DNA from: Methylophilaceae bacterium
GTDB lineage: Bacteria > Pseudomonadota > Gammaproteobacteria > Burkholderiales > Methylophilaceae
Assembly (NCBI GenBank): GCA_028823485.1
Contig: JAPKBG010000005.1
Coordinates: 1-64,000 of the forward strand
Reading direction: 5' to 3'
Length of the DNA: 64,000 nt
Shown: piece by piece, positions 3,715-34,830 of the stretch
Layout: each line of letters opens with the position of its first letter
How positions within the stretch are numbered: the first letter of the stretch is position 1
Translations under genes and position numbers: made by a program
The notes under the pieces: model-generated
What the model was told of the DNA's origin: nothing
What the model saw: the letters and a program-made list of their open reading frames with translations, nothing else
Databases searched by the model: none

Positions 3715-4584
3715 ATGCAGAAAATTACGAAAGCAGTTTTTCCCGTCGCTGGTCTTGGTACCCGCTTTTTACCAGCAACCAAAGCCAGCCCTAAAGAGAT
3801 GTTGCCTATTGTTGATAAGCCGCTCATTCAATATGCCGCTGAAGAGGCGATTGCTGCAGGCGCGACAGAGTTAATATTTATTACAGGTAAAAATAAACGA
3901 TCCATTGAAGACCATTTTGATGTTGCGGGGGAGTTGGAAGCGCAGCTAGAAGCGAGTGGTAAGCAAAAAATGCTTAATATCTTGCGTGATATCTTACCAT
4001 CGCATGTGTCTTGTATTTTTATTCGCCAACCCAAAGCCTTGGGTTTGGGCCATGCCGTGCTTTGTGCAAAGCCAGTAGTTGGCAATGAGCCATTCTCTGT
4101 TATTTTGGCAGATGATTTAATTGATGGAGAAGTTTCAGTAGTGAAGCAAGTGTCAGACGTTTATGCCGTAAAAGGCTGTTCTGTATTAGGTGTCGAAGAT
4201 GTGCCGCCGAGTGCAACGGCTAGCTACGGCATTGTTGATGCGGAAACCATTGAAAAAGATCTTTTGAAAGTGAATAGCATCGTTGAGAAACCACAGCCAG
4301 ATGATGCGCCATCTAATTTGGGTGTCGTTGGCCGTTATATTTTTACACCTAAAATCTTTGATTGTTTGGAGAAGGTTAAGCCTGGAATGGGTGGTGAAAT
4401 TCAGTTAACAGATGGCATTTCTGACCTGATGAAGCTGGAGGATGTTTATGCTTACCGCTTTCATGGCAAGCGATTTGACTGTGGTAGCAAGCTTGGCTTT
4501 ATGCAAGCCAATGTTGAACTGGCCTTAAAACACCCTGAATTACAAGTAGACTTTGCTAAGTACCTAAAAAGCCTACCATTATGA
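3715..4584 (+). CDS. galU: UTP-glucose-1-phosphate uridylyltransferase
   Basis: A 289-residue nucleotidyltransferase with the GalU signature [19 protein letters not shown] at the N-terminus, and [13 protein letters not shown]. It makes UDP-glucose from UTP and glucose-1-phosphate in the cytoplasm. Length and motifs are full-family. It sits 17 nt after the sugar dehydratase and overlaps the next gene by ATGA, so sugar-nucleotide supply and surface polysaccharide genes are probably co-transcribed. Confidence 0.96.
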
Positions 4585-5126
4585 GTGCTGTAAACCCTCA
4601 TCAATATAAACAAGATGCTGAGGTGCTCTACAGTGAGGAGGCGGTGGCATCGGCGATATCCACTATCGCCAGAGCCTTGAATGCAGACTATCAAGATGAA
4701 CTGCCGATCGTGCTGAGTGTTATGAATGGTGCTGCCTACTTTACGGGGCAATTACTCCCTCATTTAGATTTTCCATTGGCACTTGATTATGTCCATGCCA
4801 CACGTTATCAAGGCGGTATAGAAGGAAAAGCTGTGCGTTGGATAGTTGAGCCTAAAGCTGAAATTAAAAATAGGTCTGTTTTGATACTGGATGATATCCT
4901 CGATGAAGGCGTGACATTGAAATCGGTTGTGGATGCCTGTCATGCACTAGGCGCTAAACAGGTTAAAGTGGCCGTTTTAGTGGATAAAGCACTCAATAAA
5001 ATAAAACCAATCACAGCTGAATACATTGGTATCACAGTCCCCAATCGATATATTTTTGGTTGTGGCATGGATGTTAATGGCTGGTGGCGCAACCTACCGG
5101 CTATTTACGCATTAAAAACATCATGA
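4581..5126 (+). CDS. hpt: Hypoxanthine-guanine phosphoribosyltransferase
   Basis: A 181-residue type I phosphoribosyltransferase. The PRPP-binding motif [14 protein letters not shown] lies near residues 97-110, and the N-terminal region has the family's [13 protein letters not shown] loop. It salvages hypoxanthine/guanine to the nucleotide with PRPP. It is joined to galU and galE by 4-nt overlaps on both sides, an arrangement that implies translational coupling. The base specificity is assigned by family resemblance to betaproteobacterial Hpt proteins. Confidence 0.88.
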
Positions 5127-6133
5127 CTACAGTGCTCGTAACAGGCGGTGCAGGCTATATAGGATCACACGCTTGCGTGGAACTGCTAAATGCCAACTTT
5201 GATGTGCTTGTATTAGACAACTTTTGTAATAGTAAAGCCACGTCCATTAAGCGCGTTGAAAAAATAACAGGAAAATCCATCACGTTAATTGAAGGTGATG
5301 TGAGGGACAAAGCCACCTTAACGATGTTATTTTCTGACCACCAGATTGATGCAGTCATGCACTTCGCTGGATTAAAGGCTGTAAGTGATTCGGTTAATAA
5401 CCCACTTGCGTATTATGATAATAACGTCATGGGTAGTATCACCTTGCTTGAGGTAATGTCTGAATTTTCGGTCAACAACATCGTATTTAGTTCGTCGGCT
5501 ACTGTCTATGGTTTTTCCGATGATAAGCCGATTCCAGAAACGGCTCCACTTAGTCCATTTAATCCTTATGGCCATAATAAACGCATGGTTGAGCAGGTGC
5601 TAGCTGATATTAGTATTGCAGAACCAAGTTGGAATATTGCTTCGCTACGCTATTTTAATCCTGTAGGCGCGCACCCTAGTGGCGAAATTGGTGAAGACCC
5701 TAACGGTGTGCCTAATAATTTAATGCCTTATGTATCGCAAGTGGCGGTTGGTAAGCGCGAGCGTTTAAGCGTGTTTGGTAATGATTATCCTACTATTGAT
5801 GGCACAGGCGTGCGGGATTACATTCATGTGGTTGATCTCGCACTAGGTCATGTAGCTGCGTTAAATAAACTGATGCAAGGCTGCGGCCTGCTCACGCTGA
5901 ATTTAGGCGCAGGACGCGGCTATAGCGTGCTAGAGCTGGTGCAAGCTTTTGAAGCATCAACAGAGCAAAAAATTCCATATGAAATTGTAAATAGACGTGC
6001 AGGTGATATTGCTATTTACTTTGCCGATGCAAGCTTAGCAAAGCAAGTTTTAGGCTGGAAAACCACAAAAACATTAGAGGATATTTGTCGAGATGCTTGG
6101 CGCTGGCAAACGAAAAATCCAAATGGGTATTAA
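5123..6133 (+). CDS. galE: UDP-glucose 4-epimerase
   Basis: A 336-residue SDR enzyme. NAD-binding TGGAGYIGSH lies at residues 7-16, SSSATVYG and the YGHNK active-site Tyr-Lys near residues 149-153, and FNPVGAHPSG follows. It interconverts UDP-glucose and UDP-galactose. The track start (GTG at 5084) adds 13 residues that overlap hpt; the ATG at 5123 overlaps the hpt stop as ATGA and puts the Rossmann motif at the family position, so I chose it. It completes the galU-hpt-galE group. Confidence 0.95.
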   Translation: MTTVLVTGGAGYIGSHACVELLNANFDVLVLDNFCNSKATSIKRVEKITGKSITLIEGDVRDKATLTMLFSDHQIDAVMHFAGLKAVSDSVNNPLAYYDNNVMGSITLLEVMSEFSVNNIVFSSSATVYGFSDDKPIPETAPLSPFNPYGHNKRMVEQVLADISIAEPSWNIASLRYFNPVGAHPSGEIGEDPNGVPNNLMPYVSQVAVGKRERLSVFGNDYPTIDGTGVRDYIHVVDLALGHVAALNKLMQGCGLLTLNLGAGRGYSVLELVQAFEASTEQKIPYEIVNRRAGDIAIYFADASLAKQVLGWKTTKTLEDICRDAWRWQTKNPNGY

Positions 6134-6171
6134 AGCAATCAGTTGAATGGTGTTGGTGACTTGTAAAGGTT

Positions 6172-6200
6172 TAGTCAAAATACAAGCCACTGGTTATAAT
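6172..6200 (+). promoter_or_regulatory. Candidate sigma-70 promoter for rnr-rlmB
   Basis: A perfect TATAAT -10 box (6195-6200) lies 17 bp after TAGTCA (6172-6177, 4 of 6 to TTGACA). It sits in the 136-nt gap between galE and rnr, and the predicted start site leaves a leader of about 60 nt. Inferred from sequence only. Confidence 0.45.
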
Positions 6201-6269
6201 GGTCATAGTTATACGCAAAATCATAAAGCCGTTAATATTTAACCGCTAAACAATCAATGAAAAGCCTAC

Positions 6270-8666
6270 ATGCCAAAGAAGAACACTTCTAAACGCAATA
6301 ATGATCCTCATGCGCAACGCGAAGCGGCGCAATATGAAACACCTTTGCCTAGTCGCGAACTGATTTTACAAGTCATTACCGAACAAGGTGTTCCTGTTGC
6401 TTTGAAAGACCTATATGCGATATTAGAAATCGCTGAAGATGAGCAAGAGATTTTAGGTCGTCGGCTCAATGCCATGGAGCGAGAGGGGCAAGTGATGCGT
6501 AATCGCAAAAACTTGCTTTGCTTGCCTGACAAAATCGACGCCATTGCAGGTGTGATTCAAGGTCACCAAGATGGCTTTGGCTTTTTAGTCCCCGATGATA
6601 AAGACAAGAATCCAGATGATGTCTTCTTGTCGAATAAACAAATGCAACAAGTCATGCATGGCGATCGCGCCATGGTGCGTATTAATGGTTTAGATCGAAG
6701 GGGGCGGCCAGAAGGCGCGATTGTTGAAGTGCTAGAACGCATGAATAAAACAATCGTCGGTCGTGTGATGCAGGGCACTGGTGTGACCGTTGTTGCTGCT
6801 GAAGATAAACGCATTAACCAAGACATCTTGATTCCATACCATTTGGATATGGGTGCTAAGGTAGGGCAGATTGTTGAAGTTGAAATGACTGAGCAGCCTT
6901 CCAAGCATGCTCACCCAATGGGTAAAGTGATTCAGATACTTGGTAACTATGCGGATAGCGGCATGGAAATCGAAATTGCGTTACGCAAACATAAATTACC
7001 GCACCAGTTTTCACCTGCCGCAATAAAGCAAGCGGAAGCGATTCCAAAAATAGTACAACCAAACGATTATAAAGACCGCATTGATTGTCGTGAGTTGCCT
7101 CTGATTACCATTGATGGTGAAACGGCACGTGATTTTGATGATGCCGTCTTTGCTGAGCCGCAAGGTGCTGGCTGGCGCTTGGTAGTGGCGATTGCCGATG
7201 TAAGTCACTATGTGACGCCTGATGATGCATTAGATAAAGACGCCATAGAACGTGGCAACTCTATTTACTTTCCACGACGTGTGATTCCGATGCTGCCAGA
7301 AGCGCTTTCGAATGGCTTATGTTCATTGAATCCTGATGTGGAGCGGCTATGCATGATTTGCGATATGCAAGTCAATGCGGATGGTATCGTTGATAGCTAC
7401 AAGTTCTACCCTTCAGTGATGCTATCTAAAGCAAGGATGACCTACACCAAGGTCGCCGATATGTTGGAAAATCCTGATGGCGACATGGCGAAAGAGCATG
7501 CCCATATCATGCCGCATGTACAAAACTTGTATGCGCTATACCAAGCGATGCTCGTTCAGCGTAAGCAACGTGGTGCGATTGAGTTTGATACATCAGAAAC
7601 CATGATGATCTTTAACGATGAAGGCAAGATTGATAGCATCGTGCCAACTTCACGCAATGAAGCGCATAAAATCATTGAAGAGTGTATGTTGGCTGCCAAT
7701 GTTTGTGCGGCTAATTACCTAGAGGCGAATAAACACGCTGCTGTTTATCGCGTGCATGAAGGGCCTAGTGCTGAGAAGTTAGAGTTATTAAGAACCTTTA
7801 TGAGCGGGTTTGGCTTTAGCGTGGCTGGTGGTGATAAACCACACACAAAGGACTATGCCAAGTTGATGAGCCAAATCAAAGGTCGTCCAGATGAACAGCT
7901 ATTACAAACCGTCTTATTGCGCTCTATGCAGCAAGCCGTTTATAGCCCAGATAATCAAGGCCATTTCGGTCTAGCATATGAAGCTTATACGCACTTCACA
8001 TCACCGATACGCCGTTATCCTGATCTTTTAGTGCATCGCGCCATTAAAGCGGTGGTCAATAAACAAACCTATAAAGTAAAAGACTGGGCTGCCTTAGGCA
8101 CGCATTGTTCCCTTACAGAGCGCCGCGCGGATGAAGCCAGCCGGGATGTCACTAACTGGCTGAAATGTTATTACATGCAAGATAAAGTCGGCGAGGTGTT
8201 TGAAGGTACCGTATCAGCTGTCACTTCCTTTGGTGTATTTGTAGCCTTGGATGATGCTTATGTCGAAGGCTTATTACACGTCACCGAGCTAGGTAATGAT
8301 TACTTCCATTACGAAAAAGCACTCCATGAGATGGTCGGAGAACGCACAGGTGCTAAATACCGCCTAGGTGATAGAGTGACTATTAAAGTCGCACGTGTAG
8401 ACCTAGAGACAACTAAAATTGATTTCAGCTTAGTCAACAAACAAGGCAACTTGGAACTTGCTGGCCACAGTAAAGGTCAAAAAAAACCTGCTGAACGCCA
8501 ATCTAGAGAGACTAGAGGCAGGTCAGATAGCAAGCCAAGCGGCAAACCAAAAGGCCTGCCTAAAAGCACTTCTAAAAAAACGGGTGGCCGTCAATCTGAA
8601 GCTGCAAAACCAAGCAGTAAAAAATCAACCAACAGTCGTAAAAAGTCGACTAAAAAGAAAAGATAA
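6270..8666 (+). CDS. rnr: Ribonuclease R
   Basis: A 798-residue 3'-5' exoribonuclease. Visible order: an N-terminal helix-turn-helix-like region (VTEQGVPVALKDLYAILEI), two cold-shock-type domains, the RNB catalytic domain with RDFDDAV near residue 286, and an S1 domain near residues 642-725. A Lys/Ser-rich basic tail ends in KKSTKKKR. The basic tail and HTH separate RNase R from RNase II. It degrades structured RNA and helps in rRNA and tmRNA-linked quality control. rlmB follows 3 nt later, a common rnr-rlmB pairing. Confidence 0.96.
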   Translation: MPKKNTSKRNNDPHAQREAAQYETPLPSRELILQVITEQGVPVALKDLYAILEIAEDEQEILGRRLNAMEREGQVMRNRKNLLCLPDKIDAIAGVIQGHQDGFGFLVPDDKDKNPDDVFLSNKQMQQVMHGDRAMVRINGLDRRGRPEGAIVEVLERMNKTIVGRVMQGTGVTVVAAEDKRINQDILIPYHLDMGAKVGQIVEVEMTEQPSKHAHPMGKVIQILGNYADSGMEIEIALRKHKLPHQFSPAAIKQAEAIPKIVQPNDYKDRIDCRELPLITIDGETARDFDDAVFAEPQGAGWRLVVAIADVSHYVTPDDALDKDAIERGNSIYFPRRVIPMLPEALSNGLCSLNPDVERLCMICDMQVNADGIVDSYKFYPSVMLSKARMTYTKVADMLENPDGDMAKEHAHIMPHVQNLYALYQAMLVQRKQRGAIEFDTSETMMIFNDEGKIDSIVPTSRNEAHKIIEECMLAANVCAANYLEANKHAAVYRVHEGPSAEKLELLRTFMSGFGFSVAGGDKPHTKDYAKLMSQIKGRPDEQLLQTVLLRSMQQAVYSPDNQGHFGLAYEAYTHFTSPIRRYPDLLVHRAIKAVVNKQTYKVKDWAALGTHCSLTERRADEASRDVTNWLKCYYMQDKVGEVFEGTVSAVTSFGVFVALDDAYVEGLLHVTELGNDYFHYEKALHEMVGERTGAKYRLGDRVTIKVARVDLETTKIDFSLVNKQGNLELAGHSKGQKKPAERQSRETRGRSDSKPSGKPKGLPKSTSKKTGGRQSEAAKPSSKKSTNSRKKSTKKKR

Positions 8667-14422: not shown

Positions 14423-17400
14423 TTGCGTTTAACCCATTTAAAACTTGCTGGCTTTAAATCCTTTGTAGACCCGACAACGGTGCATCTACACGGACAGCGT
14501 ATTGGCGTGGTTGGCCCAAATGGTTGCGGCAAATCTAACGTCATGGAATCTGTACGTTGGGTGCTTGGCGAGTCATCGGCCAAAGAAATGCGCGCTGATG
14601 CCATGGATGCGGTCATTTTCAATGGATCATCTAACCGTAAACCAATTTCTCGCGCTAGTGTTGAACTCATCTTTGATAACGGCTTTGGTGGCGCTAATGG
14701 TGAGTGGAGCCAATACGCTGAGATATCCGTTAAGCGTGTTATTGAGCGCAAAAAAGGCTCAACTTACTACATTAACAATACTGCTGTACGTCGACGTGAT
14801 GTCGCAGACTTATTCTTAGGTACTGGGCTTGGTGGTCGCGCGTATGCCATTATTGGACAAAATACCATCTCGCGTATTGTGGAAGCCAAACCAGAAGAAC
14901 TACGTGTTTTCCTAGAGGAAGCAGCAGGGATTAGTAAGTATAAAGAGCGGCGACGTGAGACTGAGCTGCGCTTACGTGACACGCGAGAGAATTTAACCCG
15001 TATTGAAGATATTTGCCGCGAGTTGCAAACACAAATCACAAGACTGGAATCACAAGCCGTTATTACGCAACGCTATCATGCGATGCAGGAATCACTCAAA
15101 TTAGCGGATGGGCAGTATTGGCTATTGAGAAAGCGTGATGCAAACCGTGGCTGGGAAAAGACCAAGGCGGCTGTTGGAAAATTAGTCATTGAATTGGAAG
15201 CTAAGACAGCTGAGCTGCGTAAAAGCGAAGCAGGCTTAGAGCAAAGCAGGCAAGCCTTTTATAATGCGGGAGAGGCGATTAATACAGCGCAGGCTGCTTA
15301 TTACGAGGCCAATGCAAGCTTTGCCAAACTAGAAAACCAAGTGAAACAAAATACGGAAGCACGTGGCCGTATGTCACTGCAGTTACAACAGGTGGATGAG
15401 TCGTTAGTCCGTAATGCTAAGACAAAGGCAGATTCAAACGAAAAGTTAGCGCAACTCAATACTGACTTGGCCGCAGCTAGCGAAAAAGAGGAAGCGGCAC
15501 GAGCTACATTAGCGGAATTGCAATTGAAGTTGCCTAGTTTGGAAGCTGATTATCGCGTTACTGCTGATCAAATGCAGGCTAGCACGCATGCACTATTAAC
15601 GGCAAACCAACGCATTCAAATTGACACCAATAATGTGCAGCATTTAAATCAATCGATTCTAGAGAGTGAATTGCAAATCAAACGGTTTGAAGAAGTGTTA
15701 AGCCAGCTGGAAATGCCGGACACAAAAGGTGTTGAGGTAGCACAGCAAGCGCTGGCAGAAGCCGAAACAATGGTGGTTAACACTGAGCAAGCGATACAAA
15801 AGCTACGTAGTAATGAAGAGCTACTACAAGCCAATATCAACACCTTGCGTGAGCTGCAGCTGCAAGTACAGCGTGTGCTGAGCCAAGCGGAAGCAGAGGT
15901 CAATTCTTTAGAGAAAATACAACAGTCGCTTAATTCAGAAGGTGAACTGTCAGACTGGTTATCGCGACAGGGTTTGCAAAACAATGCACGCTTGTGGGAA
16001 AAAATTAACATAGATGATGCTTGGAGTTTGGCGTTAGAGGCTGTCCTAGGTGCGCGGCTGAATGCCTTACTAGCTAAATCTAAGATCGATGATAGGCCGC
16101 CGGGCGCGTTAGTTCTTAGTTTCTCTAGACGTTCGTCTAAAGCGGCGCTAATTTCTGTACCATCAAATTCCACATTAACACCGTTAATCAGCATGGTTAA
16201 CGATTGTGGGCCGGTATTTCAAGCCACACTCAATGATTGGCTTGCTGGCATTTATTTGCTGAATGATGGCGAGGATGGCAGTAGCGCAAGCGAGGACTTA
16301 GTGCCAGGTGAGCGGCTAGTGAATAAGCAAGGTGATGTGTTTAGCCTTGGCGGCGTGGTTTATCACGGTGAAAATACGCATTTACATGGCATGATAGAGC
16401 GGCAGCAGCAGTTGGGCGATTTAAAAAAAGCGTTGCCTGCGTTGCAAGGCTCGGTGACGCAGTCTGCCAATCAATTACAACAAGCTGAAATGGAGTTGGG
16501 GCAAAGTAGGGCGTTACAGCAGCAAAAAAGCACTCAACTTAAATCCGCAATGCAATCATTACATCAGCATCAGCTAGATATTGCAAAATTAGAACAATTG
16601 GGCAATGCATGCACTGCACGTGAAAAGAGTTTGCAGGTAGATATTGAAGCAGCTAAAACAAAGTATGAGAAACAGCTTGGTAATGTGAGTGATAAAGAAT
16701 CCGCGCTACAAGCAATAAAATCAGGTATTCAACAGCTTGAAGCAGCAAAAAATGTTGATGTTGCGGCAAGGCAGCAGGCTGATCAAGCATTTAATGCATT
16801 AAGAGAGTCTGTTTCAGAGGCGGATAAAACACATCGAGAACTTGACTTTGAAATTAAAATTATTAACAATAAAATTAATGAGTTAAATAATAAAATTAAT
16901 GTAATAAATGAAGAAGAGACATCGTTTAATTTACGTAAAAATGAAACTGAACAAGCCTTAAGTATTACGCCAATGGAAACGCTTAAAGCGAATCTAGAGC
17001 AAGCGGTCACCGTTAAGCAATCAACAGAGGTCGCGTTATCCGAAGCTAGAAATCAATTGGAATCGCAAGATGCTCAATTGAAAGAGCTGGAGCGTGTTCG
17101 CATGCAAAATGAGCAAGCGCTTAATCCAATGCGAGATACGCTTGAGCAAGGCCGTTTAAATGAGCAAGAAGCACGATTGCATTTTGAGCAGTGTCAGGCA
17201 GGCCTAACAGAGACGAAGTTGGATGAGGCCGTTTTAGCCGCCGATTTGGAAGATGATGCGAAGGCCAGTATCTATGCCAATAAAACCAGTCAACTACAAA
17301 GGCAAATTGATGCGCTAGGGCCAGTTAACTTAGCGGCAATACAAGAGTTCGATAGCGAAACAGAACGCAAAGGCTATTTAGATAGTCAACTGCAAGACTT

Positions 17401-17932
17401 GATTGAAGCGAGTGAGACTTTAAAGGGTGCGATTAATAAAATCGATAGACAAACGCGCGAGAAGTTACTCACCACCTTCAATGAAGCTAATAAACACTTT
17501 GGTGAATTGTTTGCTACGTTATTTGGTGGTGGTCAAGCAAAATTAGAGTTGCTTGGAGAAGAGATACTCGATACTGGATTGCAAGTATTTGCGCAGCCAC
17601 CAGGTAAAAAGAATACAACGATTCAGCTACTATCCGGTGGTGAAAAAGCACTGACTGCGATAGCATTGGTTTTTGCTTTATTTAGATTGAACCCAGCACC
17701 ATTCTGTTTGATGGATGAGGTTGATGCACCACTTGATGATAGCAATACCGAGCGTTTTTGTGCCATGGTGAAAAAGATGTCTGAACACACACAGTTTCTA
17801 TTCGTCAGTCATAATAAAATCACCATGGAAATTGCACAACAATTGATTGGTGTTACCATGCAAGAGTCCGGTGTGTCACGTATTGTTGATGTCGATATTG
17901 CTGCGGCATTGAAAATGCAAGTCTCACCTTAA
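14423..17932 (+). CDS. smc: Chromosome segregation protein SMC
   Basis: A 1169-residue SMC ATPase. Walker A is GPNGCGKSN near residues 31-39, followed by VRWVLGESSAKEMR. A long coiled coil leads to a hinge near residues 500-640, and a second coiled coil returns to the C-terminal head with signature LLSGGEKALTA and Walker B CLMDEVDAPLDD. It organises and segregates the chromosome. The start is TTG; it gives the canonical start MRLTHLKLAGFKSFVDPT and no in-frame ATG is available. No scpA/scpB gene is next to it. zipA and ligA follow in the same direction. Confidence 0.96.
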   Translation: MRLTHLKLAGFKSFVDPTTVHLHGQRIGVVGPNGCGKSNVMESVRWVLGESSAKEMRADAMDAVIFNGSSNRKPISRASVELIFDNGFGGANGEWSQYAEISVKRVIERKKGSTYYINNTAVRRRDVADLFLGTGLGGRAYAIIGQNTISRIVEAKPEELRVFLEEAAGISKYKERRRETELRLRDTRENLTRIEDICRELQTQITRLESQAVITQRYHAMQESLKLADGQYWLLRKRDANRGWEKTKAAVGKLVIELEAKTAELRKSEAGLEQSRQAFYNAGEAINTAQAAYYEANASFAKLENQVKQNTEARGRMSLQLQQVDESLVRNAKTKADSNEKLAQLNTDLAAASEKEEAARATLAELQLKLPSLEADYRVTADQMQASTHALLTANQRIQIDTNNVQHLNQSILESELQIKRFEEVLSQLEMPDTKGVEVAQQALAEAETMVVNTEQAIQKLRSNEELLQANINTLRELQLQVQRVLSQAEAEVNSLEKIQQSLNSEGELSDWLSRQGLQNNARLWEKINIDDAWSLALEAVLGARLNALLAKSKIDDRPPGALVLSFSRRSSKAALISVPSNSTLTPLISMVNDCGPVFQATLNDWLAGIYLLNDGEDGSSASEDLVPGERLVNKQGDVFSLGGVVYHGENTHLHGMIERQQQLGDLKKALPALQGSVTQSANQLQQAEMELGQSRALQQQKSTQLKSAMQSLHQHQLDIAKLEQLGNACTAREKSLQVDIEAAKTKYEKQLGNVSDKESALQAIKSGIQQLEAAKNVDVAARQQADQAFNALRESVSEADKTHRELDFEIKIINNKINELNNKINVINEEETSFNLRKNETEQALSITPMETLKANLEQAVTVKQSTEVALSEARNQLESQDAQLKELERVRMQNEQALNPMRDTLEQGRLNEQEARLHFEQCQAGLTETKLDEAVLAADLEDDAKASIYANKTSQLQRQIDALGPVNLAAIQEFDSETERKGYLDSQLQDLIEASETLKGAINKIDRQTREKLLTTFNEANKHFGELFATLFGGGQAKLELLGEEILDTGLQVFAQPPGKKNTTIQLLSGGEKALTAIALVFALFRLNPAPFCLMDEVDAPLDDSNTERFCAMVKKMSEHTQFLFVSHNKITMEIAQQLIGVTMQESGVSRIVDVDIAAALKMQVSP

Positions 17933-17986
17933 TGCTTTTTAAAGTATTATTATTTAAATATTTAAAATTAGAAATAAAGTTACCAA

Positions 17987-21350
<3,364 letters not shown>

Positions 21351-32080: not shown

Positions 32081-32431
32081 TTAGTTTTCGTGCCAACCTT
32101 TAACCAGATTACTCAAGATAAACAAGCCTAAAACCGTACCAACAGGAAAGGCCGCCAACGCAAGAATAGCAAGAAATCCACCTAAGTATCGTGCCCACTG
32201 TTGGTGAAATTTAAGTCCTCTAGCCGTTACGAGTAAGGCAGTAATAAATCCGACAAAGATGCCGATTATTGGCCAAAAATAAGTATCTGGATGCTCAAGC
32301 TCTGCACCCAGCATATCAACTACGAGTACAGACAACATTATGGTCACGACAATAAAGATAAGCACCCATGAAAAGATGGCCAATAAATGTCCCGCATTCT
32401 GTGTATTCGTTTTAACCTTACTGTCTGTCAT
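32081..32431 (-). CDS. Small integral membrane protein of unknown function
   Basis: A 116-residue protein with three to four hydrophobic helices (LLAIFSWVLIFIVVTIMLSVL, YFWPIIGIFVGFITALLVTA, and YLGGFLAILALAAFPVGTVLGLFIL) and short polar ends. The family is not recognised. A hairpin TGATGCCC/GGGCATCA follows at 32024-32056 but has no T run. It is upstream of ccmA on the same strand and downstream of the dif-like site. Confidence 0.6.
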   Translation of the reverse strand: MTDSKVKTNTQNAGHLLAIFSWVLIFIVVTIMLSVLVVDMLGAELEHPDTYFWPIIGIFVGFITALLVTARGLKFHQQWARYLGGFLAILALAAFPVGTVLGLFILSNLVKGWHEN

Positions 32432-32533
32432 TTCTGCCCTGTTATTTGTGCTGTTAAATTGAGGTTATATTGTAATAGATAATGTAGTAGTGAGAGAGTT
32501 CAATTCACATCCACTTAATCACTCGCATCATTT

Positions 32534-32561
32534 ATTTAACATAATATACATTATACGAAGT
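32534..32561 (-). other. dif-like XerC/XerD recombination site
   Basis: The minus strand reads ACTTCGTATAA, then TGTATA, then TTATGTTAAAT. The 6-bp centre and the 11-bp XerD arm are identical to the E. coli dif site, and the XerC arm keeps CG-ATAA. The 28-bp 11-6-11 layout is exact. It lies in a 436-nt gene-free gap. It is most likely the chromosomal dif (dimer resolution) site near the replication terminus; an integrative element using XerCD is the alternative. Confidence 0.85.
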
Positions 32562-32678
32562 AATGCAATTTCATAGGTCTCGTGTTATTAAGTTTTTTAA
32601 ATCACCTCCTATGCATAACATGGGTATTAGACCACCCCTTTCTCGCATACAACATAAATACGCTAAACAATTCAATAA

Positions 32679-32852
32679 AAGAATAGAATAGGCGACAATG
32701 GAATCAATATGTTTGTCGAGTTTTGGATAGAAGGTATTGATAATGGCAAGAATCGAGTAGGCGGCGATTTGTATTTGATAATCTTAGAAACATTACAAGC
32801 GAATCATATCGAAATTCCATCACCACAACGTGATGTACACATCAAACAATAA
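32679..32852 (+). pseudogene. C-terminal remnant of a MscS-family mechanosensitive channel
   Basis: An open frame without a proper start reads GDNGINMFVEFWIEGIDNGK, then NRVGGDLYLIILETL, then IEIPSPQRDVHIKQ and a stop. This matches the end of MscS-type channels, where x-FW-I-x-x-x-x-N-G is followed by a helix and IP-x-PQR-x-V. About 58 codons remain; the pore and membrane part is gone. It begins roughly 120 nt from the dif-like site. Confidence 0.7.
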
Positions 32853-32867
32853 ATATAAAGGTAATAT

Positions 32868-34190
32868 ATGGGTACTTCAATGAGTTTAATCGTAGTCGTT
32901 CTTTTACTAGCGACGAATGCTTTCTTTGTCGCAGCAGAATTTGCATTGGTTAAAGCGCGGGGATTTCGTATTGATGCGCTGGCTGAACAAGGCAATGCAC
33001 CAGCCATGATGACCCAGAAAATACAACAAAATTTAGAAGCTTACTTGGCCGCCTGTCAGCTAGGTATTACGATGGCCTCATTAGGTCTTGGCTGGGTAGG
33101 TGAGCCAGCTATCGCCGCACTGCTGGAGCCTGTACTGTCATCATTTAAGCTTTCTGAGACGATGGTCCATACGGTCGCCTTTTTGACAGGTTTTCTAATT
33201 TTTTCATCGTTACATATTATTATTGGTGAACAAGTCCCTAAAACCTTTGCCATTCGCAAACCTGAAGCTATGTCACTCATGGTGGCCTACCCTTTGCACT
33301 GGTCGTATATTGCTGTTTACCCCTTTAACTGGATGTTGAATAAAGTATCAGGCTGGATTTTAAAACAATTTGGTGTAGAAGAAGCTGGCCATGGAGAAGT
33401 GCTGAGTGGTGATGAAATCAAAGGTCTCGTCAAAACTTCTTACGAACATGGGGAAATAGAAATGGGTAAGGCGCGCATGCTACGCAATCTGTTTGAATTT
33501 GATGAGCGCCGCATCGGGCGCGTCATGATTCCAATTAGTGCCACATACAGCATTGATATCAATGGGGATTTAAACAAGAATCTTAGAATTATTCGAGAAT
33601 CAGGTCACTCACGCTTTCCTGTCATCAATAGCGATCATGATGATGAAATCAAAGGAATTCTACTGGTAAAAGACATATACAATGCATTACTCGATGGTGT
33701 GAAAGAACCTTGGAACGACCTTGCAAAGTACTATCGTGAGCCGCTTATCATTCCTGAAACACAACGCGTCTCTAAATTGTTTGAGCTGATGCGCTCACGC
33801 AGGGCTCACATGGCGTTGATTGTCGATGAATATGGTAATTTTAGCGGCATCGTCACACTAGAAGACCTGCTGGAAGAAATCGTCGGCGAGATACATGACG
33901 AAACTGATACCGAAGAAAGTACGATTGATATCCAGAATATCGCCGAGAACCAATGGGAAGCTTATGGCTTAATCTCGATTGCCGATTTGGGTCGTGCGAC
34001 TGGTTACCACCCAGAAGACTCAATGGATGCTAATACCATCTCCGGCTTGTTTTTACAGAAACTGCAGCGCATGCCTAAAGCCAATGACAGCATCGAAGAT
34101 CGAGGCTATCAGTTTAGCATTCTCACAATTGAAGACCATCATATTGGCAGAGTCACGATTGAAAAAATAGTTGGTGTTGGCGTAGATTGA
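32868..34190 (+). CDS. CorC/HlyC-type membrane protein with CBS pair
   Basis: A 440-residue protein of the DUF21/CNNM class: three to four N-terminal helices (SLIVVVLLLATNAFFVAAEFALVKARGF), a CBS pair near residues 210-340 (VMIPISATYSID and IVDEYGNFSGIVTLEDLLEEIVGEI), and a CorC_HlyC domain at the C-terminus. Such proteins are linked to Mg/Co efflux or divalent-ion homeostasis; the hemolysin name is historical. It is transcribed alone on the plus strand, and the ATG follows AAAGGTAATAT. Confidence 0.9.
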   Translation: MGTSMSLIVVVLLLATNAFFVAAEFALVKARGFRIDALAEQGNAPAMMTQKIQQNLEAYLAACQLGITMASLGLGWVGEPAIAALLEPVLSSFKLSETMVHTVAFLTGFLIFSSLHIIIGEQVPKTFAIRKPEAMSLMVAYPLHWSYIAVYPFNWMLNKVSGWILKQFGVEEAGHGEVLSGDEIKGLVKTSYEHGEIEMGKARMLRNLFEFDERRIGRVMIPISATYSIDINGDLNKNLRIIRESGHSRFPVINSDHDDEIKGILLVKDIYNALLDGVKEPWNDLAKYYREPLIIPETQRVSKLFELMRSRRAHMALIVDEYGNFSGIVTLEDLLEEIVGEIHDETDTEESTIDIQNIAENQWEAYGLISIADLGRATGYHPEDSMDANTISGLFLQKLQRMPKANDSIEDRGYQFSILTIEDHHIGRVTIEKIVGVGVD

Positions 34191-34397
34191 TCAGTTTAGC
34201 GTATAAAGTATTTGTTGGTCTGTCGGCGAACACTTGGTTGGTGAAAGCCGCTCGAAAAGTCGGCCTACACAGGCCAACGTCTTAGTAACGTCCTTCAAAT
34301 GAAACGTCATTGCCTGGATTGGCTCATGCAAGCGCTTTAAAGCGCCCTCTTACTTTGTATTAAGCCTTTAAATGTATGATTGACTACGAGCAGGTGT
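34191..34397. other. Non-coding stretch after the CorC-type gene
   Basis: No gene seen. It contains a perfect 14-nt palindrome GCGCTTTAAAGCGC at 34332-34345 without an adjacent T run. Confidence 0.4.
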
Positions 34398-34449: not shown

Positions 34450-34830
34450 TTAACGGTTGTTAAAGAATGCAACGTTAGCAACGTGATTGTTAACAAAAGT
34501 CACTTCAACTTCCTTGTAAGTATGCTTAGGATCGTAGCTGACGATACCTGCGTAATACCACATTTCAACCTTAACTGGTTTTGATTTAGATTTTTTAGCA
34601 CCATCAAATTTTTTGCCTGTTACTTTTTCAGCATTACTCGGCTTAACGGAAACGTGCTGTTTAACTGGCTTACCTAGTTTTTCTAAAACAACTTTCTTCG
34701 TTTTACCGCTGAAGTTACTTAAGAATTCATTTTCGGTGTATATCTTATCTGCTGCGTTTGCTAGACCTGCGATAGCAAATGAAGCAATGGTAAGACTAAG
34801 GGCAAGCTTTTTAAATGCATTAAAATTCAT
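34450..34830 (-). CDS. Periplasmic protein of unknown function
   Basis: A 126-residue protein with a signal peptide (LALSLTIASFAIAGLANAA, cleavage near residue 27). The mature part starts with a short helix and VVLEKLGKPVKQ. A Lys/Ser-rich loop follows (FDGAKKSKSKPVKV), then strands EMWYYAGIVSY, KEVEVTFVNN and ANVAFFN. The order resembles the small SmpA/OmlA (BamE-like) fold, but there is no lipobox Cys. It has its own terminator and a Shine-Dalgarno AGGA 7 nt before the ATG. No family is assigned. Confidence 0.65.
   Translation of the reverse strand: MNFNAFKKLALSLTIASFAIAGLANAADKIYTENEFLSNFSGKTKKVVLEKLGKPVKQHVSVKPSNAEKVTGKKFDGAKKSKSKPVKVEMWYYAGIVSYDPKHTYKEVEVTFVNNHVANVAFFNNR

Follow-up and report, generated by a model that had tools for sequence, protein, structure and literature searches.

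The 28 bp site at positions 32,534 to 32,561 (minus strand) of the window, i.e., the 64,000-nucleotide stretch of a Methylophilaceae draft genome analyzed here, is almost certainly the chromosomal dif of this betaproteobacterium. We read it as such because of its sequence match, its single copy in the genome, a switch in GC skew, its synteny with sites lying opposite dnaA, and the genes encoding XerC and an FtsK with a gamma domain. A first-pass annotation, made from the sequence alone, had claimed a chromosomal dif at the replication terminus, and this claim is supported by the single copy, the skew, the polarity of oriented motifs, and the synteny to sites opposite dnaA.

Read directly from the window, the plus strand of 32534–32561 is atttaacataatatacattatacgaagt. 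On the minus strand (32561 to 32534) this gives ACTTCGTATAA/TGTATA/TTATGTTAAAT, the whole 28-mer being ACTTCGTATAATGTATATTATGTTAAAT, and the 11-6-11 layout that had been described for this strand proved to be exact at these positions. It consists of a predicted XerC-binding arm, ACTTCGTATAA (32551–32561), a central hexamer, TGTATA (32545–32550), and a predicted XerD-binding arm, TTATGTTAAAT (32534–32544), all on the minus strand. The XerC arm is the variable one and reads either ACTTCGTATAA or ACTTCGCATAA in genomes of the same genus, while the hexamer and the XerD arm are identical in E. coli. The site has the classical layout of a proteobacterial dif (28 bp, two 11 bp arms, a 6 bp centre, and a conserved XerD arm), and it is intergenic, lying in the gap at 32432–32867.

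The genome-wide search proposed in the first-pass annotation, in which one copy was expected, found the 28-mer exactly once in the draft genome (1.64 Mb), with no other site at three or fewer mismatches; this count covers the assembled part of a genome that is 86.5% complete in 30 contigs, and the missing part could hold another. The runner-up on the 119 kb contig that carries the window matched at 18 of the 28 bases. Chance similarity, to which the A+T richness of the sequence might lend some weight, has a practically negligible probability. Only about 0.001 copies of the 17-mer formed by the centre and the XerD arm are expected per 1.64 Mb genome under a dinucleotide model, even before the XerC arm is counted, and the position of the site is conserved in relatives.

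Over its first 16 bases, ACTTCGTATAATGTAT, the site is identical to one strand of the lox site of phage P1 (halves read from the P1 record), which could suggest a lox-like target of a Cre-type recombinase. However, such a site needs two inverted 13 bp arms. Here the XerD arm TTATGTTAAAT stands on the right, and the second lox arm is absent. Furthermore, the likeness hangs on a single-base difference, as some sibling species have ACTTCGCATAA as their XerC arm. We rejected the lox site on its arm structure and regard it as extremely unlikely. The likeness of ACTTCGTATAATGTAT to lox could nonetheless mislead sequence searches.

The chromosomal dif reading is also borne out by gene order. In three further genomes of the genus (G001, G004, and G005), dif lies between the same two neighbour genes as in the present genome (G000). 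On the XerD side, the syntenic neighbour encodes a 116 aa protein with no assigned family (32081–32431, minus strand), which is followed in the same-genus genomes by ccm genes. On the XerC side, the neighbour encodes a 126 aa protein (34450–34830, minus strand), likewise of no assigned family and with no match in Pfam or NCBIfam; in the same-genus genomes it is followed by TatD, holB, and tmk, and it is kept in this genus and in several other genera of the family. At 14423–21350 of the window, about 11–18 kb from dif, smc, zipA, and ligA stand in a row, and they are found near dif in several relatives too.

In G005, which is assembled as a single 2.03 Mb contig, dnaA and the syntenic dif are separated by 49.7% of the genome, and the corresponding distances in G019, G023, G024, and G006 are 48.4, 49.7, 49.2, and 48.2% of the genome, respectively; the position opposite the origin was measured in relatives only, as G000 is fragmented and its own dnaA–dif distance is not measurable. 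A reversal of dif with respect to the replichores in G005 was considered and dropped, because a maximum of the skew is still a maximum after reverse complementation; the contig is read from the other strand, and gene order and dif turn together.

A degenerate dif pattern was matched in 22 of 60 related genomes, exactly once in each and never twice; the XerD arm was fixed in this pattern, so that relatives with a variant arm would be missed and the sameness of the XerD arm among the matched relatives is by construction. All 28 bases recur unchanged in 76 contig stretches from other genomes, the carriers being Methylotenera, Cycloclasticus, Acinetobacter, Amphritea, Nitrincola, and others. Most of these loci showed none of the neighbour genes seen in the window. 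Among named genomes, the closest that keep these neighbours are Methylotenera and other Methylophilaceae; by these names, and not by a tree, the present genome is placed in this family, as an uncultured relative of Methylotenera. One locus, L041, from the draft of a methanotrophic symbiont of Bathymodiolus japonicus, contains the same 28-mer twice in opposite orientation. The two copies belong to a perfect inverted repeat of 2,264 bp (1–2264 and 4034–6297) with a transposase-like gene at the start of the contig; the arrangement is due either to an inverted duplication or to an artefact of assembly. Several other draft contigs start within a few bases of dif (L080, 1–28; L079, 2–29; L059, 13–40), as if the assembly breaks there; Xer-integrated elements or strain variation could be responsible.

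Skew was computed on the 119 kb contig, of which the window is the start. The terminus is marked by the maximum of the cumulative skew, not by its minimum. Over roughly the first 26 kb, GC skew was positive, after which it was mostly negative, and the cumulative GC skew on this contig peaked at 26,400, 6.1 kb off dif. The switch that had been predicted near 32.5 kb was found, with its maximum 6 kb from dif and not on dif itself. Among 161 proteobacterial chromosomes, the median distance between dif and the skew maximum is 7,277 bp (PMC2731167); the 6 kb offset of the peak is close to this published median, and the site lies near the skew maximum in this sense. When third-position skew was corrected for gene strand in G000, the best break fell at 25.3 kb (rough support, 21.8–27.0 kb), and the switch was not moved onto dif. 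This fit yielded an implausible break for G001, whose contig is short, and a broad one for G005; these fits carry little weight. The sampled skew also changed sign near dif in G005 and G019.

Three species of the genus have their skew maximum 6.0–6.1 kb from dif, always on the side of the ccm genes (26400 vs 32548 in the window, 43483 vs 37450 in G001:C31, and 40294 vs 34146 in G005:C1), these species being related and not independent. The shared offset may reflect a turn in gene direction at that point, or termination slightly off dif.

The polarity of GGGNAGGG that had been predicted for both sides was recovered as well. Seven of the eight motifs on the contig are aimed at dif (1/1 on the left and 6/7 on the right), a small sample of an E. 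coli KOPS-type motif that may not be the exact one of this host.

Regarding the recombination machinery, XerC is encoded in the draft genome (XerC equivalog, above the curated cut-off), and FtsK with a gamma domain is encoded both there and in five relatives. XerD was found in all five relatives checked (G001, G004, and G005 of the same genus, together with G019 and G023), and it was not found in the 86.5% complete draft. This absence is probably an assembly gap, because the draft is incomplete and the essential trmD, which is next to xerD in siblings (about 1 kb away in G005, where plsY is also near), is missing from it as well. For tsaD, which lies on the other side of xerD, the best that the draft gave was a weak match, at 38%, to a paralogue. 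A real loss of XerD was considered and set aside in favour of the gap, given the missing trmD and the weak paralogue match for tsaD. A DNA search with 20 kb around the G005 xerD gave no match; lacking a positive control, this result was given no weight on its own.

Immediately next to dif, on its XerC side, lies an extra stretch of about 1.8 kb (32562–34390, approximate boundaries) that is absent from this place in three sibling species of the genus, in which about 50 bp separate dif from the 126 aa gene's terminator, as against about 1.8 kb here. It contains a gene for a CNNM/CBS/CorC_HlyC membrane protein (32868–34190, plus strand), which has 33–36% identity to its closest relatives among the genomes searched. 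An open stretch of 47 codons at about 32710 shows a weak likeness to the C-terminus of MscS among solved structures (E = 0.25, not significant) and, over 40 residues, a 45% match to part of a Methylococcales locus; it is possibly a remnant of an MscS C-terminus.

The position of this stretch, abutting the XerC arm and missing there in the three siblings, would suit a leftover attachment site of a mobile element that exploits the XerCD of its host (an IMEX or a plasmid dif module), which the first-pass annotation had named as its less likely option in place of a native dif. Such an element is flanked by two dif-like sites, however, whereas a single one is present in the genome. No second dif-like site, even a degenerate one, flanks the extra stretch (best 17/28, within noise), and there is therefore no sign that XerCD placed the stretch there. 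Next to dif, no gene was recognised as belonging to a phage or plasmid, and the neighbours searched included no integrase or phage gene; the GC content of the stretch is 0.422 vs 0.424 for the window. The syntenic position of dif is kept in siblings without the stretch, which largely refutes the attachment-site reading; we consider it very improbable. It also appears unlikely that a passing element integrated by XerCD delivered the CNNM stretch to dif and that its second junction has since been lost. If this were true, dif would be a spot of gene acquisition in this lineage.

As a chromosomal dif, the site would be expected to act in the resolution of chromosome dimers. An odd number of crossovers would leave the sister chromosomes fused as a dimer, oriented GGGNAGGG-like motifs would guide FtsK towards the terminus, and the gamma domain of FtsK would activate XerD bound to the TTATGTTAAAT arm. 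XerC would then complete strand exchange across the TGTATA centre, yielding two monomers before division. This mechanism is inferred from established knowledge of XerCD, dif, and FtsK, and the function of the site here is a prediction. The site is an ordinary, textbook dif with no sequence feature departing from the known mechanism, and it does not extend what is known of dimer resolution. Its value is positional: it assigns the window to the replication terminus of the draft chromosome and provides an anchor for contig orientation.

Among known systems, dif of E. coli K-12, GGTGCGCATAATGTATATTATGTTAAAT (from NC_000913.3), has the same 11-6-11 layout and agrees with the present site at 24/28 bases. 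Identity is complete across the centre and XerD arm (17/17 bases in the K-12 record), as the first-pass annotation had stated. The two systems further have in common the terminus position and an FtsK with a gamma domain, and they differ at four bases of the XerC arm (GGTGCGCATAA there vs ACTTCGTATAA here). The dif of Methylobacillus flagellatus KT, ACTTCGCATAATGTATATTATGTAAAAT, is a two-base variant with the same type of XerC arm (ACTTCG.ATAA) and the same centre (PMC2731167). It is likewise intergenic and several kb off the skew maximum (8,825 bp; PMC2731167), and it differs in having C in the XerC arm, where the present site has T, and TTATGTAAAAT as its XerD arm vs TTATGTTAAAT here.
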